Assembly: GCA_947625705.1 (NCBI GenBank)
Contig: CANQPG010000001.1
Coordinates: forward strand, 1 to 56,962
DNA: 56,962 nt
Direction of reading: 5' to 3'
DNA from: an uncultured Peptococcaceae bacterium
Lineage (GTDB): Bacteria > Bacillota > Dehalobacteriia > UBA4068 > UBA4997
The notes under the pieces are model-generated. The model saw nothing but the letters and a program-made list of their open reading frames with translations. It searched no databases and had not been told where the DNA came from. The position numbers and the translations under genes were made by a program. This document shows positions 8,287 to 42,399 of the stretch, piece after piece (the first letter of the stretch is position 1; every line of letters starts with the position of its first letter).

Positions 8287-8338
8287 AAAGGATACGCAAA
8301 CAAAGCGGCGGCAAAATGCCAAACCACCTGTGTCTCGC

Positions 8339-8447
8339 CGTATTCTTCCATCCAGACTGTACTGTCGGCTTCGGAATTGCACCGAATCATGCCTTGCGGC
8401 TCGTGGGCTATACCACCGGTCGGGAATTGCACCCTGCCCCGAATACG
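8339..8447 (-). promoter_or_regulatory. FMN riboswitch (RFN element)
   Basis: The minus strand reads GGGGCAGGGTGCAATTCCC, then ACCGG, then AGCCCACGAGCCGC, then GATTCGGTGCAATTCCG, then AGCCGACAGTACAGTC and TGGATGGAAGAATACG, the hallmark RFN sequence blocks in order. The P1 stem pairs CGTATTC (8447-8441) with GAATACG (8345-8339). Binding of FMN is expected to favour the downstream terminator at 8257-8286 and switch off ribD-ribE-ribBA-ribH-HAD. Confidence 0.97.
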
Positions 8448-8465
8448 TTATGTAACTGTACATAT

Positions 8466-15999: not shown

Positions 16000-16028
16000 T
16001 TGACACCCAACATTTTGTATGAGATAAT
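16000..16028 (+). promoter_or_regulatory. sigma-A promoter of nrdD
   Basis: TTGACA (16000-16005), 17-bp spacer, GATAAT (16023-16028), about 75 nt before the nrdD ATG. The surrounding 200 bp is AT-rich. Two imperfect palindromes flank it (TACCA...TGGTA at 15971-15990 and TGC-CAC...GTG-GCA near 16033-16054). They do not match the NrdR box well enough to call. Confidence 0.75.
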
Positions 16029-16101: not shown

Positions 16102-18444
16102 ATGGTTCAAATGTTTACCAACATCATCAAACGCGACGGGCGGCTGGCGCCCTATGACATCAGCAAGATCTCAACGGCGATCAATAAGGCGATGGAGGCC
16201 TGCGGCCGAAACTCAGAGGAAGCGGAATGTGACCGTCTGGCCGGGCTGGTGGAGGCCAAGCTGGAGGAAGCATTCCAGAGCGAGGCTCCCGGTATCGAGG
16301 ACATTCAGGACATGGTGGAGACCGTTTTGATGGAAAACGGCTACGCCATCGTGGCGCGGAAGTATATCATCTACCGCACCGAGCGCACCCGCAGCCGCGA
16401 AATGAACACGCGCCTGATGCGTATCTATGACGAGCTGACCAACACGGACTCGCTGCTTTCGGATATGAAGCGCGACAACGCCAACATCGACGGCGACACC
16501 GCGATGGGCACCATGCTGAAATACGGCAGCGAGGGCGCCAAGGATTACTACGAAAAATACGTTCTGACCCCGGCGCAGAGCAAGGCGCACAGCGAGGGCG
16601 ATATCCATATCCACGATTTCGATTTCTATACCCTGACCACCACCTGCTGCCAGATCAACCTGCTGGAGCTGTTTAAGGACGGCTTCTCCACCGGGCACGG
16701 CTTCCTGCGCGAGCCGAACGATATTTCCAGCTACACGGCGCTGGCCTGCATCGCCATCCAGTCCAACCAGAACGACCAGCACGGCGGCCAGAGCGTGCCG
16801 AACTTCGATTACTGCATGGCTCCCGGCGTCGCCAAGACGTTCAAGAAGCTTTATATCAGCAACTTCCATAAGGCGGCGCAGCTGCTTTGCCCCGAATATA
16901 CGCTGACACAGGCGGAGACCAAAGCCGTTTTTGCCGGGCTGGAGGAAGCCGGCAAAGGCCGCCCCACCCTGGAAATGGACAAGAAATTCCTGGCGGCTCT
17001 CGCCAAGGCGTTTGCGGACAAGCTGCCGCAGGACGTTTACGACAAAGCGGCGGAATTTGCCTACAAAAACGCCCTCGCCGAAACGGACAAGCACACCTAT
17101 CAGGCGATGGAGGCGCTGGTGCACAACCTGAACACCATGCACAGCCGCGCCGGTGCGCAGACGCCGTTTTCTTCCATTAACTACGGCACCGACACCTCGC
17201 CGGAGGGGCGCATGGCCATCAAGAACATTCTGCTGGCGACGGAAGCCGGCCTCGGCCAGGGCGAGACCCCTATCTTCCCGATCCACATCTTCAAGGTGAA
17301 AGAGGGCGTCAGCTTCAACCCCGGCGACCCGAATTATGACCTCTTTAAGCTGGCCTGCCGCGTTTCGGCCAAGCGTCTGTTCCCGAACTTCTCGTTCATC
17401 GACGCGCCGTTCAACCTGCAATACTACAAGCCCGGCCACCCCGAGACCGAGGTATCCTACATGGGCTGCCGCACCCGCGTTTTGGGCAATAATTACGACC
17501 CCACGCATGAGATCACCTATGGCCGCGGCAATCTGAGCTTCACCTCCATCAACCTGCCGCGTATCGGTATCAAGGCCAACCACAGCCTGGAGCTCTTCTT
17601 CGACGACCTGGAGCGCAAAATGGATCTGGTGGCCAACCAGCTGCTGGACCGCTTCAAAATTCAGTCGCATAAGCACGTCCGCAACTTCCCGTTCCTGATG
17701 GGGCAGGGCGTGTGGATCGGCTCGAAGGATCTGGATATCGACGACGAGGTGGGCGAGGTGCTGAAGCACGGCACCCTCTCCATCGGCTTTATCGGCCTGG
17801 CGGAAACGCTGGTGGCGCTCACGGGGCACCATCACGGCGAAAGCATGGAAGCACGCAACCTGGGGCTGGAAATTGTCGGCTTCATGCGGGAATACTGCGA
17901 CAGAAAAAGCAAGGAGACCGGCCTTAACTTCACGCTGCTGGCCACCCCGGCCGAGGGGCTTTCCGGCCGCTTCGTGCGTATCGACAAGAAAAAGTTCGGC
18001 ATTATCCCCGGCGTGACCGACCGCGAGTATTACACCAACAGCTTCCACGTGCCGGTATATTACAACATCAGCGCCTATGACAAGCTGCGCATTGAAGCGC
18101 CCTATCACGCGCTGACCAACGCCGGCCATATCTCCTATGTGGAGCTGGACGGCGATACCGCCAAAAATCTGGAAGCGTTTGAAAGCGTCGTCCGCTTCAT
18201 GAAAGAAGTCGGTATCGGCTACGGCTCCATCAACCACCCCGTCGACCGCGACCCCGTCTGCGGTTACAGCGGTATTATCAACGAGGTCTGCCCGCGCTGC
18301 GGCCGGCATGAGGGCGAGGGCGTACCCGTCGAAAAGCTGCGCCAAATCAAGGCCACCAACCGCGGCAACGCCGACACCTGCGGCTATTGCGGCGATATCG
18401 GCGAGGAGAGCGAGCGCGAACAACACCCCAACAAGTTGGGCTAA
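16102..18444 (+). CDS. nrdD: anaerobic ribonucleoside-triphosphate reductase, large chain lacking the glycyl-radical segment
   Basis: 780 residues from the ATG at 16102 (AGGAG upstream; ATG at 16111 is possible). It reduces ribonucleoside triphosphates to deoxy forms under anaerobiosis. An ATP-cone occupies about residues 3-95 (IIKRDGRLAPYDISK). The ten-stranded barrel core contains TTTCCQINLLELF and the active-site cysteine Cys456 in MGCRT. The C-terminal zinc region has Cys720, Cys730/Cys733 and Cys760/Cys763. Family members continue from here into the radical motif RxxGY. This protein instead ends with GDIGEESEREQHPNKLG and has no such glycine. The missing segment is encoded by the separate ORF at 18545-18703. 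nrdG follows and nrdR is convergent. Confidence 0.95.
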   Translation: MVQMFTNIIKRDGRLAPYDISKISTAINKAMEACGRNSEEAECDRLAGLVEAKLEEAFQSEAPGIEDIQDMVETVLMENGYAIVARKYIIYRTERTRSREMNTRLMRIYDELTNTDSLLSDMKRDNANIDGDTAMGTMLKYGSEGAKDYYEKYVLTPAQSKAHSEGDIHIHDFDFYTLTTTCCQINLLELFKDGFSTGHGFLREPNDISSYTALACIAIQSNQNDQHGGQSVPNFDYCMAPGVAKTFKKLYISNFHKAAQLLCPEYTLTQAETKAVFAGLEEAGKGRPTLEMDKKFLAALAKAFADKLPQDVYDKAAEFAYKNALAETDKHTYQAMEALVHNLNTMHSRAGAQTPFSSINYGTDTSPEGRMAIKNILLATEAGLGQGETPIFPIHIFKVKEGVSFNPGDPNYDLFKLACRVSAKRLFPNFSFIDAPFNLQYYKPGHPETEVSYMGCRTRVLGNNYDPTHEITYGRGNLSFTSINLPRIGIKANHSLELFFDDLERKMDLVANQLLDRFKIQSHKHVRNFPFLMGQGVWIGSKDLDIDDEVGEVLKHGTLSIGFIGLAETLVALTGHHHGESMEARNLGLEIVGFMREYCDRKSKETGLNFTLLATPAEGLSGRFVRIDKKKFGIIPGVTDREYYTNSFHVPVYYNISAYDKLRIEAPYHALTNAGHISYVELDGDTAKNLEAFESVVRFMKEVGIGYGSINHPVDRDPVCGYSGIINEVCPRCGRHEGEGVPVEKLRQIKATNRGNADTCGYCGDIGEESEREQHPNKLG

Positions 18445-18466
18445 AAAATAATTTTACAACTACATA

Positions 18467-18495
18467 TTGACAAAAGCGCCAAGGTAAGTTAAAAT
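18467..18495 (+). promoter_or_regulatory. near-consensus sigma-A promoter inside the nrd locus
   Basis: TTGACA (18467-18472), 17-bp spacer, TAAAAT (18490-18495), 50 nt before the small glycyl-radical ORF. A 5-bp inverted repeat, AGGTA (18482-18486) and TACCT (18497-18501), brackets the -10 box and could be an operator. It gives the radical-domain ORF and nrdG expression independent of nrdD. Confidence 0.8.
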
Positions 18496-18544
18496 ATACC
18501 TACAACACGCCAAACAATACTCATACATAAAGGAGACGATAAAT

Positions 18545-18703
18545 ATGACACCGGCAAAGAAAATTCAAAACACTGAACTGATCGGCGAGGGCGTCGGCTT
18601 TGAACGTATCCGCCGCATCACCGGCTATCTGGTTGGCACGCTCGACCGCTTCAACGACGCTAAGCGCTGCGAGGAAAAGGATCGCGTAAAGCATGGCCTT
18701 TGA
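18545..18703 (+). CDS. stand-alone glycyl-radical domain of class III ribonucleotide reductase (52 aa)
   Basis: Translation from the ATG at 18545 gives 52 residues. Positions 20-50 contain ERIRRITGYLVG, then TLDRFNDAKR, then EEKDRVKH: the canonical NrdD C-terminal glycyl-radical loop, with the radical residue at Gly27 (RITGY). The first 19 residues are a short linker. AGGAG lies 9 nt before the ATG. The ORF starts 100 nt after the nrdD stop, has its own TTGACA-17-TAAAAT promoter and overlaps the nrdG start by 11 bp. It supplies what NrdD at 16102-18444 lacks, so the two probably form one enzyme by non-covalent docking (inference). The concept resembles YfiD/GrcA, which replaces an oxygen-cleaved radical domain of pyruvate formate-lyase. 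Confidence 0.9.
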   Translation: MTPAKKIQNTELIGEGVGFERIRRITGYLVGTLDRFNDAKRCEEKDRVKHGL

Positions 18704-19232
18704 TCCCGCTGATTTGAACAAAAAGAATATCCGGTTGGCCGGCGTCGTCAACGACTCGATAACCGACGGGCCGGGTATTCGTTTCACCGTTTTTGTGCAG
18801 GGCTGCCCGCACCATTGCCCGCATTGCCAAAACCCGCAGACATGGGATTTTGACGGCGGCGAGCTGGTATCGGCGGCAGAGCTTTTGGCCGATATCGAGC
18901 AAAACCCCCTGCTTGGCGGCGTAACGTTCAGCGGCGGCGAGCCGCTGGCGCAGGCGGAAGCGCTGCTGCCGCTGGCCGAAGCCGTTCGGCAGAAAGGCCT
19001 GGGCTTGGCGATCTACACCGGCTATACGTTTGAACGGCTGCTGGAAATGCAGGATAAGGCGATCATGCAGCTGTTGGCGCTGGCCGATACGCTCGTTGAC
19101 GGGCCGTTCATCATGGCGGAGCGCAACCTGGAGCTGAACTTCCGCGGCTCAAGCAACCAACGCATTATCGACCTGCCCCAGTCTTTGGCGGCAGGCAAAG
19201 CGATAATCGACACATCAGAAAGATGGAATTAA
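18693..19232 (+). CDS. nrdG: anaerobic ribonucleoside-triphosphate reductase activating protein
   Basis: 179 residues. Radical-SAM activase with the CxxxCxxC iron-sulfur motif at Cys38, Cys42 and Cys45 (GCPHHCPHCQNP) and the SAM motif TFSGGEPLAQ. It generates the glycyl radical on NrdD, which here should be Gly27 of the separate 52-residue protein. The ATG lies inside the end of that ORF (11-bp overlap in another frame), so the two are translationally coupled. It ends 1-2 bp before a strong terminator. Confidence 0.96.
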   Translation: MAFDPADLNKKNIRLAGVVNDSITDGPGIRFTVFVQGCPHHCPHCQNPQTWDFDGGELVSAAELLADIEQNPLLGGVTFSGGEPLAQAEALLPLAEAVRQKGLGLAIYTGYTFERLLEMQDKAIMQLLALADTLVDGPFIMAERNLELNFRGSSNQRIIDLPQSLAAGKAIIDTSERWN

Positions 19233-19260
19233 AAAAGACCTCGCAATGCGAGGTCTTTTT
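19232..19260. terminator. bidirectional terminator after nrdG
   Basis: AAAAAGACCTCGC pairs perfectly with GCGAGGTCTTTTT around the loop AAT. It also serves the convergent nrdR side. Confidence 0.9.
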
Positions 19261-19443: not shown

Positions 19444-19899
19444 TTATTTCTGAGACATCATGTTGTGAATTTCTTTCATAAAGGTCTCAATATCTTCAAA
19501 TTTGCGGTAAACCGACGCAAACCTAACATAGGCCACGTCGTCCACCTGGCGCAGGCGTACCATCACCATGTCGCCGATCTGCTTGGCGGTGACCTCTTTT
19601 TCCATCGAGTTGCGGAGCTCTTTCTCGATGTCGGACACCATATCCTCCAGCGTGCTCATCGGCACGGGGCGCTTATCGCAGGCGCGCACCAGCCCGGCCA
19701 GTATCTTGTTTTTGTCAAAAATCTCCCGGCTGCCGTCGCGTTTGACGACCAAGAGGCTCATTTCCTCCACCCGCTCATAGGTCGTAAACCGCTTGCCGCA
19801 GCGCTGACACTCACGCCGCCGCCGAATACTGCGCCCTTCTTCCACCGGGCGGGAATCCAGCACCTTGGAATCCTCATAGCCGCAAAATGAACAACGCAT
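19444..19899 (-). CDS. nrdR: transcriptional repressor NrdR
   Basis: 151 residues from the ATG at 19899 (GGGAGGG 7 nt upstream). The N-terminal zinc ribbon is MRCSFCGYEDSKVLDSRP, followed by RRRRECQRCGKRFTTYER. An ATP-cone occupies residues ~47-137 (VVKRDGSREIFDKNKIL). It represses ribonucleotide reductase genes in response to ATP/dATP. It lies convergent to nrdD, the radical-domain ORF and nrdG, consistent with local regulation of that locus, although I could not find a convincing NrdR box. Confidence 0.97.
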   Translation of the reverse strand: MRCSFCGYEDSKVLDSRPVEEGRSIRRRRECQRCGKRFTTYERVEEMSLLVVKRDGSREIFDKNKILAGLVRACDKRPVPMSTLEDMVSDIEKELRNSMEKEVTAKQIGDMVMVRLRQVDDVAYVRFASVYRKFEDIETFMKEIHNMMSQK

Positions 19900-19968
19900 G
19901 ATCAAACCCTCCCTAAACAGGAAATACCGTTTTGAATTATCTTTCGACGTTAAACGGCAAATTCCTGC

Positions 19969-42290: not shown

Positions 42291-42399
42291 ACCACAACAA
42301 TATATAGTCATACCATACAACTGATATAAAATGCAATACGGCTCCATAATAATTTTGCCGGGAAAATGCTAATCTTATCTATAAAGAGAGGTTGGCATT

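Follow-up and report, generated by a model that had tools for sequence, protein, structure and literature searches.

A class III ribonucleotide reductase appears to be encoded in two pieces within a stretch of 56,962 nucleotides from an uncultured gut bacterium of the Peptococcaceae (contig CANQPG010000001.1, forward strand; this whole stretch is referred to below as the window). The first piece is nrdD, the gene of the catalytic chain, which here ends without the glycyl radical segment; the second is an open reading frame (ORF) of 52 codons that contains this segment and is followed by nrdG, the gene of the radical-SAM activase. The features of the locus are as follows.

16102..18444, + strand: nrdD, catalytic chain without the radical segment, 780 residues (PF13597 profile positions 1-532, E 1.1e-190; homologous to the NrdD structure 8p23)
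16120..16389, + strand: ATP-cone domain (PF03477, E 1.5e-23, residues 14-103 of the 787-residue ORF)
17467..17469, + strand: codon of the finger-loop Cys456 (MGCR; computed position; invariant in alignments A2 and A5)
18259..18300, + strand: zinc-ribbon cysteines C720, C730 and C733 (computed; aligned to the matching region of NrdD structures)
18307..18441, + strand: C-terminal tail of the large chain, a 'ghost' radical segment, HEGEGVPVEKLRQI...CGYCGDIGEESEREQHPN, without RxxGY (hhalign homology to the small ORF)
18545..18703, + strand: predicted stand-alone glycyl radical subunit, 52 residues (PF13597 positions 533-562, E 2.8e-7; conserved, under purifying selection)
18693..19232, + strand: nrdG, radical-SAM activase (TIGR02491, 139 bits against a cut-off of 126; PF13353)

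The large chain is assigned to the anaerobic reductase by NCBIfam (1099 bits), with some latitude in its start: the longest ORF, from 16081, encodes 787 residues, and the ATG at 16111 is possible too. The chain terminates downstream of the zinc cysteines, and RxxGY is absent from the large ORF. The hallmarks of a class III NrdD at this locus—the barrel (PF13597), the finger-loop cysteine (Cys456, which we take to be the thiyl radical site), and a cognate NrdG—are present, but the radical glycine on the same chain is missing. The small ORF, MTPAKKIQNTELIGEGVGFERIRRITGYLVGTLDRFNDAKRCEEKDRVKHGL, has Gly27 (codon 18623-18625) within RITGY, and the Pfam family NRDD (PF13597) is divided between the large and small ORFs exactly at 532/533, with the small ORF scoring 30 bits against a cut-off of 26.2. 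A Shine-Dalgarno sequence, AAGGAG, lies at 18530-18535, 9 nt 5′ of the ATG; the gap between the nrdD stop and the small ORF is 100 nt, and the small ORF overlaps nrdG by 11 nt. RRITGYL occurs a single time in the six-frame translation of the whole window. The 52-residue ORF was found to have no match to Gly_radical (PF01228), its matches being PF13597 and one sub-threshold match to an unrelated family. A preliminary description of this DNA had proposed that NrdD lacks RxxGY and that the radical motif is carried by its own 52-residue gene, and the ORFs, the Shine-Dalgarno sequence, and the overlap with nrdG were confirmed. A gene split by an intron or intein was considered and rejected: the 100-nt gap holds a stop codon, a promoter-like site, a Shine-Dalgarno sequence, and a start codon, with no splicing element. 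No Rfam element was matched in this gap at the gathering threshold.

An NrdD without the glycyl radical domain (GRD), together with a separate radical ORF, was found in each of the nine genus members searched (G000-G008), with the nrdD pieces of G004 lying on two contigs. The motif lies 83-181 nt past the nrdD stop in the 11 split loci that were measured, in all three frames and with varied stop codons; among relatives the stop is TAA, TGA, or TAG, and it is double in L089 and L114. GEGVxFERIRRITGYLVG is near-invariant in 24 small proteins, with the N-terminal residues being variable. Over the conserved 36 codons of the small ORF, NG86 comparison of the window with the eight other genus members gave a non-synonymous divergence (dN) of 0.01-0.09 and a synonymous divergence (dS) of 0.39-1.44, a ratio of about 0.02-0.10, and the codon differences in 36 genus pairs add up to 430 synonymous and 77 non-synonymous ones. 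Purifying selection thus acts on the small ORF; being conserved in all nine genomes with a low dN/dS, it is a genuine gene, as had been supposed, and a chance origin is excluded. Furthermore, the variable gap, frame, and stop codons argue against sequencing error, readthrough, and frameshifting.

With respect to other reductases, a search of the window genome, which is 92% complete at 1.6 Mb in 70 contigs, gave neither a further NRDD match nor one to class I/II (PF02867; the control was positive in 11 of 14 genomes), and neither a full-length NrdD nor PF02867 was found in any of the nine genus genomes. A second full-length nrdD elsewhere, which the preliminary description had named as a finding that would count against the split, was not found in the 92%-complete genome; since no other reductase was found, the organism would have a ribonucleotide reductase only through the joint action of the two chains. 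Two genomes of another family (f34), each a single contig, also carry a split NrdD, a strong argument against an assembly artefact. In one (G241), a GRD-less NrdD (1-532) lies at 1.467 Mb and the radical gene with nrdG at 1.038 Mb, 430 kb apart; in the other (G285), nrdD, GRD, and nrdG are clustered. No class I/II match was found in either genome, the split NrdD being the sole ribonucleotide reductase found, and in both the radical protein has an extra N-terminal domain.

Residues 19-50 of the small ORF aligned to the P. copri NrdD structure 8p23. Gly27, Tyr28, and Arg35 of the small chain and Glu618 of the large chain correspond to Gly711, Tyr712, Arg719, and Glu581 of P. copri NrdD (with a numbering offset of +4 that is itself inferred), the roles of these residues being those given in the accessible part of PMC11226230. 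A read-through model of L052 (RGIG1825, from goat cecum), which is the genus member G008, joined both chains as one polypeptide and served as a stand-in for two-chain co-folding. The mean predicted local distance difference test score (pLDDT) of this model was 75.8 and its predicted template modelling score (pTM) 0.73; it was superposed on T4 NrdD (1h7b) with Z 39.0 and 2.2 Å over 503 aligned residues, with residues 133 and 822 of the model being the first and last aligned and the latter adjoining Gly823. The model supports compatibility of the two chains, not their binding.

The preliminary description had presented one split gene; a survey of genomes showed the split to recur in relatives, and its standing as a lone oddity was lost, with the arrangement being widespread and occurring in several forms. 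A scan of genome contigs covered the best 80 loci, those closest to the split query, with the counts biased accordingly: 58 were fused, 17 had a downstream radical ORF (motif 64-661 nt past the nrdD stop), and 5 had a GRD-less NrdD without a radical ORF in the fetched stretch. The radical gene was found on another contig in 4 of these last 5 genomes, and 3 also have a fused NrdD. Named carriers of a split among these loci include Anaerotruncus colihominis JM4-15 (L071) and Ruminococcus sp. FC2018 (L118). A survey of the phylum with a profile (A4) of a longer form of the radical protein covered 398 genomes at least 90% complete (E <= 1e-12), and, being tuned to the long form, gives a lower bound; it replaced an earlier PF13597 survey (247 of 299 genomes matched) because only the strongest matches, and not the small ones, were visible in the latter. 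At least 45 of the 398 genomes match, 11 of them through C-termini of fused NrdD only (rows judged by eye), and at least 34 have a stand-alone or NrdG-fused radical protein—25 in the long form and 9 in the window form, 7 of which belong to the window's genus. Thirteen of these 34 pair a fused NrdD with a long-form protein, and 20 have no fused NrdD, 15 of the 20 also being without class I/II; one more (G343, window form) has a distant fused NrdD.

The window form consists of a short variable N-terminus and the radical segment, and the long form of about 55 additional residues followed by the radical segment (8 proteins aligned), an extra part for which no convincing Pfam or NCBIfam family was found in the three proteins tested. 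The long form lies between nrdD and nrdG in G046, G111, G285, G380, G218, and G345, and adjoins nrdG away from nrdD in G241, G264, G305, G194, and G363, so that the GRD stays beside nrdG in all five fetched genomes of family f34 with an unlinked nrdD. NrdG was identified above the NCBIfam cut-off in G241, G285, G264, G305, and G194, and by eye in G363. The long form is found alone in Ruminococcus and G036, and alongside an intact NrdD in G038, G361, G415, and others. The NrdD of G036 (L043:434-2737, + strand) ends in FERIHRITE-stop shortly 5′ of an activase-like ORF, with a long-form radical gene on another contig; this NrdD may have been truncated in nature, with the long-form protein as its candidate partner. 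A single ORF encodes both the radical domain and NrdG in G288 and in G308: that of G288 has PF13597 533-562 followed by Fer4_12, and that of G308 passes the NrdG cut-off at residues 123-267, C-terminal to RRITGY. An ORF flanking such fusions (L187:1922-3034, - strand, and L190:1852-2739, + strand) resembles, by eye, a site-specific recombinase. A long-form radical gene at L163:4049-4321 (+ strand) lies near an ORF resembling, again by eye, a VirD4-type coupling protein, which suggests a conjugative element. Two NrdDs (L050 and L051, from G014 and G010) have a C-terminal extension that looks by eye like thioredoxin/glutaredoxin. Among plasmid records, 17 match one long-form protein and none covers 80% of it; of the two opened, that of Monoglobus holds a full-size NrdD gene and the other is without annotation. 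No link to Tn1549-type elements was seen among the literature matches listed.

Viral contigs were scanned with the long form, taking the best 80 of 249 relatives, and a GRD-less NrdD was recognized by motif in 9 of these 80 fetched stretches. The 45 records of at least 20 kb among the 80 were searched whole: 9 have the radical gene and a GRD-less NrdD, 36 the radical gene without any NrdD, and none a fused NrdD, with the records possibly being fragments and some near-duplicates (e.g., G482 and G484). A phage context is supported by neighboring genes, namely those for a clamp loader (L203), a major tail protein and tape measure (L207), a virion protein (L216), and a tail protein (L246); no match was obtained for the single L211 neighbor tested or for one of the two L203 neighbors. 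At L207:3977-4237 (+ strand), the radical gene is flanked by the genes for the major tail protein and the tape measure, a position at which tail assembly chaperones are usually encoded. In INPHARED, nine records match one long-form protein and two cover at least 80% of it.

The origin of the split may be recorded in the tail of the large chain. In the window form, this tail (GEGV..EKLRxI...EExDRxxNP) matches the radical protein (GEGVGFERIRRI...EEKDRVKH), with hhalign giving 86.7%, E 4.3e-6, and a score of 28.4 for the 23 of 28 tails that were of sufficient length; none of 200 column shuffles reached this score (top 17.4). Without the GEGV linker, the score was 18.1 versus a top of 14.8 in 200 shuffles, and the match of the tail to fused C-termini was weaker (17.5%, score 19.3, reached by 1 of 200 shuffles). 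Because the large-chain tail is homologous to the radical protein, the split is read as having most likely arisen when the radical segment was duplicated in tandem and the covalent copy then decayed. At least two cysteines occur in the large-chain tail in 17 of 28 window-form pairs (CGYC in the window), none of the 17 having a cysteine in the small-chain tail, and 6 of the remaining 11 pairs have a cysteine in the small-chain tail; at least two cysteines occur past the radical segment in 11 of 60 fused NrdDs, and all of these counts come from related rows that are not independent. The cysteines of the two tails (18307-18441 in the window, and the small-ORF C-termini) are complementary, in that a pair is found on the large tail or a cysteine on the small one, but never both, in the 28 pairs.

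A tree of the catalytic core (120 rows, a quick method, with support from the Shimodaira–Hasegawa-like approximate likelihood ratio test (SH-aLRT); the fragmented G004 was left out) requires 12 changes between the fused and split states, at least 6 of them forced. The window's genus (8 rows) forms one clade (support 100) within a mostly fused clade of 26 rows. A single origin of the window-type splits was rejected for the catalytic core, with one clade for the 28 window-form rows giving p-AU 4.5e-5 in the approximately unbiased (AU) test, a test made on the quick tree with groups set by gene arrangement; if it holds, the split must have arisen repeatedly, the 3′ end must have been transferred, or re-fusion must have taken place. 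The NrdG tree (87 of the 120 rows, with NrdG recognized by a regular expression and 33 rows dropped) gives 11 changes, 1 of them forced, and is too weak to speak on movement of the 3′ module.

Overall, the locus very probably encodes a heteromeric class III ribonucleotide reductase in which the glycyl radical would be held by a separate and possibly exchangeable small subunit. The large chain would supply the ATP-cone, the barrel, the finger-loop Cys456, and the zinc ribbon, and the 52-residue chain the RITGY loop and a C-terminal helix. Docking, formation of a radical on Gly27, and catalysis are steps that we infer: the small chain would dock in the barrel at the site taken by the C-terminus of a fused enzyme, bringing Gly27 beside Cys456; NrdG, encoded adjacently, would install the radical on Gly27; and Cys456 would take the radical from Gly27 at each turnover. 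Glycyl radical enzymes are inactivated when oxygen cuts the chain at the radical glycine. Because the cut falls there, an oxygen-damaged small subunit could be exchanged for a new one while the large chain is kept and need not be synthesized again.

Several observations weigh against this heteromeric enzyme. The window genome is a 92%-complete draft in which, taken alone, a reductase could be missed. Among genomes carrying either a GRD-less NrdD or a stand-alone radical gene, 8 of 35 have a class I/II reductase, as do 7 of 25 stand-alone genomes, and in a set of 22 genomes a fused NrdD accompanies the split in 5 (G061-G063, G079, and G081) and a distant one in 2 (G074 and G078); in the class I/II survey, G066 and G008 are one genome. 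No nrdG was seen beside the radical gene in Ruminococcus and G036. In the L052 model, the glycine loop is of low confidence (block means of 61 and 48), although the naturally fused control L053 likewise falls below 50 pLDDT at residues 746-751; the whole-chain root-mean-square deviation from 8p23_A is 10.6 Å; and docking is partly built into the model because 29 of its 32 alignment rows are fused NrdDs. Finally, the rejection of one clade for the window-form rows fits poorly with their shared ghost tail.

The heteromeric enzyme may have a further property: the separate gene would allow quick replacement of oxygen-cut radical subunits, in the manner of YfiD/GrcA for pyruvate formate-lyase (PFL). 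This is an addition to the heteromeric-enzyme explanation and not an alternative to it, and we place it a little short of an even chance. The expression signals of the locus include the following.

16000..16028, + strand: putative promoter-like site 5′ of nrdD, TTGACA-N17-GATAAT with extended TG (consensus scan, 11 of 12 matches)
18467..18495, + strand: promoter-like site for the small gene and nrdG, TTGACA-N17-TAAAAT, between the ORFs (11 of 12 matches)
19232..19260, + strand: intrinsic terminator-like hairpin 3′ of nrdG (13-pair stem followed by a T run)

The consensus scan of the stretch gave 7 promoter-like sites versus 1.7 expected, and terminator-like hairpins numbered 8 versus 5.3 expected. 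The hexamers of the small-gene site recur with identical spacing in G003 and G004 (three of nine genus members, including the window), and in this sublineage the second promoter-like site may make expression of the radical subunit and activase separable from that of the large chain. An own promoter-like site favors the exchange of spare subunits, as do the long-form proteins found together with an intact NrdD (13 of the 34 stand-alone genomes) and the solo radical genes on phage records, and the accessible part of PMC8683613 (JBC 2021), in which only PFL spare parts are validated, allows for spare parts of other glycyl radical enzymes. This support for exchange after oxygen damage, from stand-alone proteins, phages, and the promoter-like site, is circumstantial. 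On the other side, the split subunit is obligatory in the window rather than spare, and no such promoter was found in the other six of nine genus members, in which the small gene trails nrdD closely and the radical subunit and activase genes look co-transcribed with it. A search for patterns resembling the NrdR box gave 6 matches in the window versus 1.5 expected, one of them at 18459. A palindrome-like ACTATATATTG/ACAATATATAG occurs at 42297-42308, 5′ of uvrB, with a one-mismatch relative at 18459 beside the small-gene promoter-like site. The ORF at 19444-19905 (- strand), convergent with nrdG, presumably encodes a candidate for the regulator NrdR, which it resembles. Elsewhere in the window, an FMN riboswitch was matched at 8336-8450 (- strand, 114 bits), and an open frame of 737 residues antisense to nrdD (16213-18426, - strand) is probably a shadow of GC-rich codon usage.

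A second possibility, to which we assign a somewhat smaller chance, is neutral gene fission: the split would bring no benefit and would be tolerated since the radical segment docks tightly regardless. Duplication with later loss would account for the decayed covalent copy that the tail retains, and the repeated changes between fused and split states in the core tree fit fission and fusion that come easily. By contrast, a stand-alone protein seems to be selected for, judging from the copies on phages and from the conservation of the N-terminal domain in the long form, and retention of the GRD with nrdG in all five f34 genomes with an unlinked nrdD also speaks against neutrality.

Recoding, by which ribosomal readthrough or a frameshift would yield one fused chain, could be imagined for L052, L064, and L083, where both parts are in frame behind a single TAA; it was set aside as highly improbable, given that frames vary among the genus members, that the stops differ and are double in two loci, and that the small ORF possesses a separate start, accompanied by a Shine-Dalgarno-like sequence in every window-form row but one (by a simple score). 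Sequencing or assembly error or a pseudogene, raised in the preliminary description and compatible with a 70-contig draft, is refuted by a split common to nine genomes with different gaps, frames, and stops, by purifying selection, and by the single-contig genomes with a split NrdD, and is given next to no probability.

More broadly, the class III radical domain may tentatively be viewed—at odds slightly under even—as a transferable cartridge that occurs in trans, fused to the activase, and on mobile elements, with phages using it to re-arm or take over host NrdD, including oxygen-cut NrdD, and with the window's lineage having become dependent on the cartridge. It is suggested that phages carry the radical domain to sustain DNA synthesis. 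The detachable radical pieces in other anaerobes and phages make the suspected repair by swapping testable. Natural candidates for NrdD are available among these loci in obligatory as well as spare form, and named strains (Anaerotruncus colihominis JM4-15 and Ruminococcus sp. FC2018, for example) carry some of them. A separable radical subunit would be useful for studying radical installation by NrdG and the reach of dATP control. The annotation of anaerobe genomes would change as well, in that the catalytic gene seems truncated and the small gene is easily overlooked.

In the literature searched, which lies mostly outside subscription journals and bioRxiv and was accessible in part (including PMC9531940, PMC9669993, PMC8683613, PMC11226230, PMC4493059, PMC3653736, PMC4390871, PMC2795772, and PMC12288474), neither a split NrdD whose radical subunit is separate nor any NrdD spare part was found to be described. 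Fused NrdDs (P. copri, T4, and E. coli) likewise have the ATP-cone, barrel, finger-loop cysteine, zinc site, nrdG partner, and radical motif, whereas in the window the radical glycine is on a second polypeptide, and what remains of the segment at the end of the large chain is a decayed copy. Coding sequences in pieces are also known from phage nrdD genes interrupted by introns, inteins, or endonucleases; as far as the accessible part of PMC3653736 goes, those interruptions are due to introns, inteins, or an unknown cause, whereas the piece in the window is a conserved gene that has a start codon to itself and is unlinked in some genomes. The split class II reductase NrdJa/NrdJb of P. aeruginosa is likewise a two-chain enzyme, but, according to the part of PMC9669993 available, it depends on B12, and what has been separated off is no radical carrier but an IscU-like and zinc domain. 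Class I reductases (alpha and beta subunits) also store the radical on a separate subunit, but theirs is a tyrosyl or metal radical in a ferritin-like, oxygen-dependent protein (see also PMC9669993 and PMC4390871). E. coli YfiD/GrcA and T4 Y06I, the spare-part proteins of PFL, are likewise, as described in the part of PMC8683613 consulted, small stand-alone radical domains that use the radical-SAM activase of their partner and dock into a chain without its radical glycine. Unlike YfiD/GrcA, the small subunit of the window would serve NrdD rather than PFL, belongs to PF13597 rather than PF01228, and has 52 residues versus about 127; and in the window genome it is the sole copy of the radical glycine found, with no intact full-length partner, whereas such a partner is present in 13 of the 34 stand-alone genomes.

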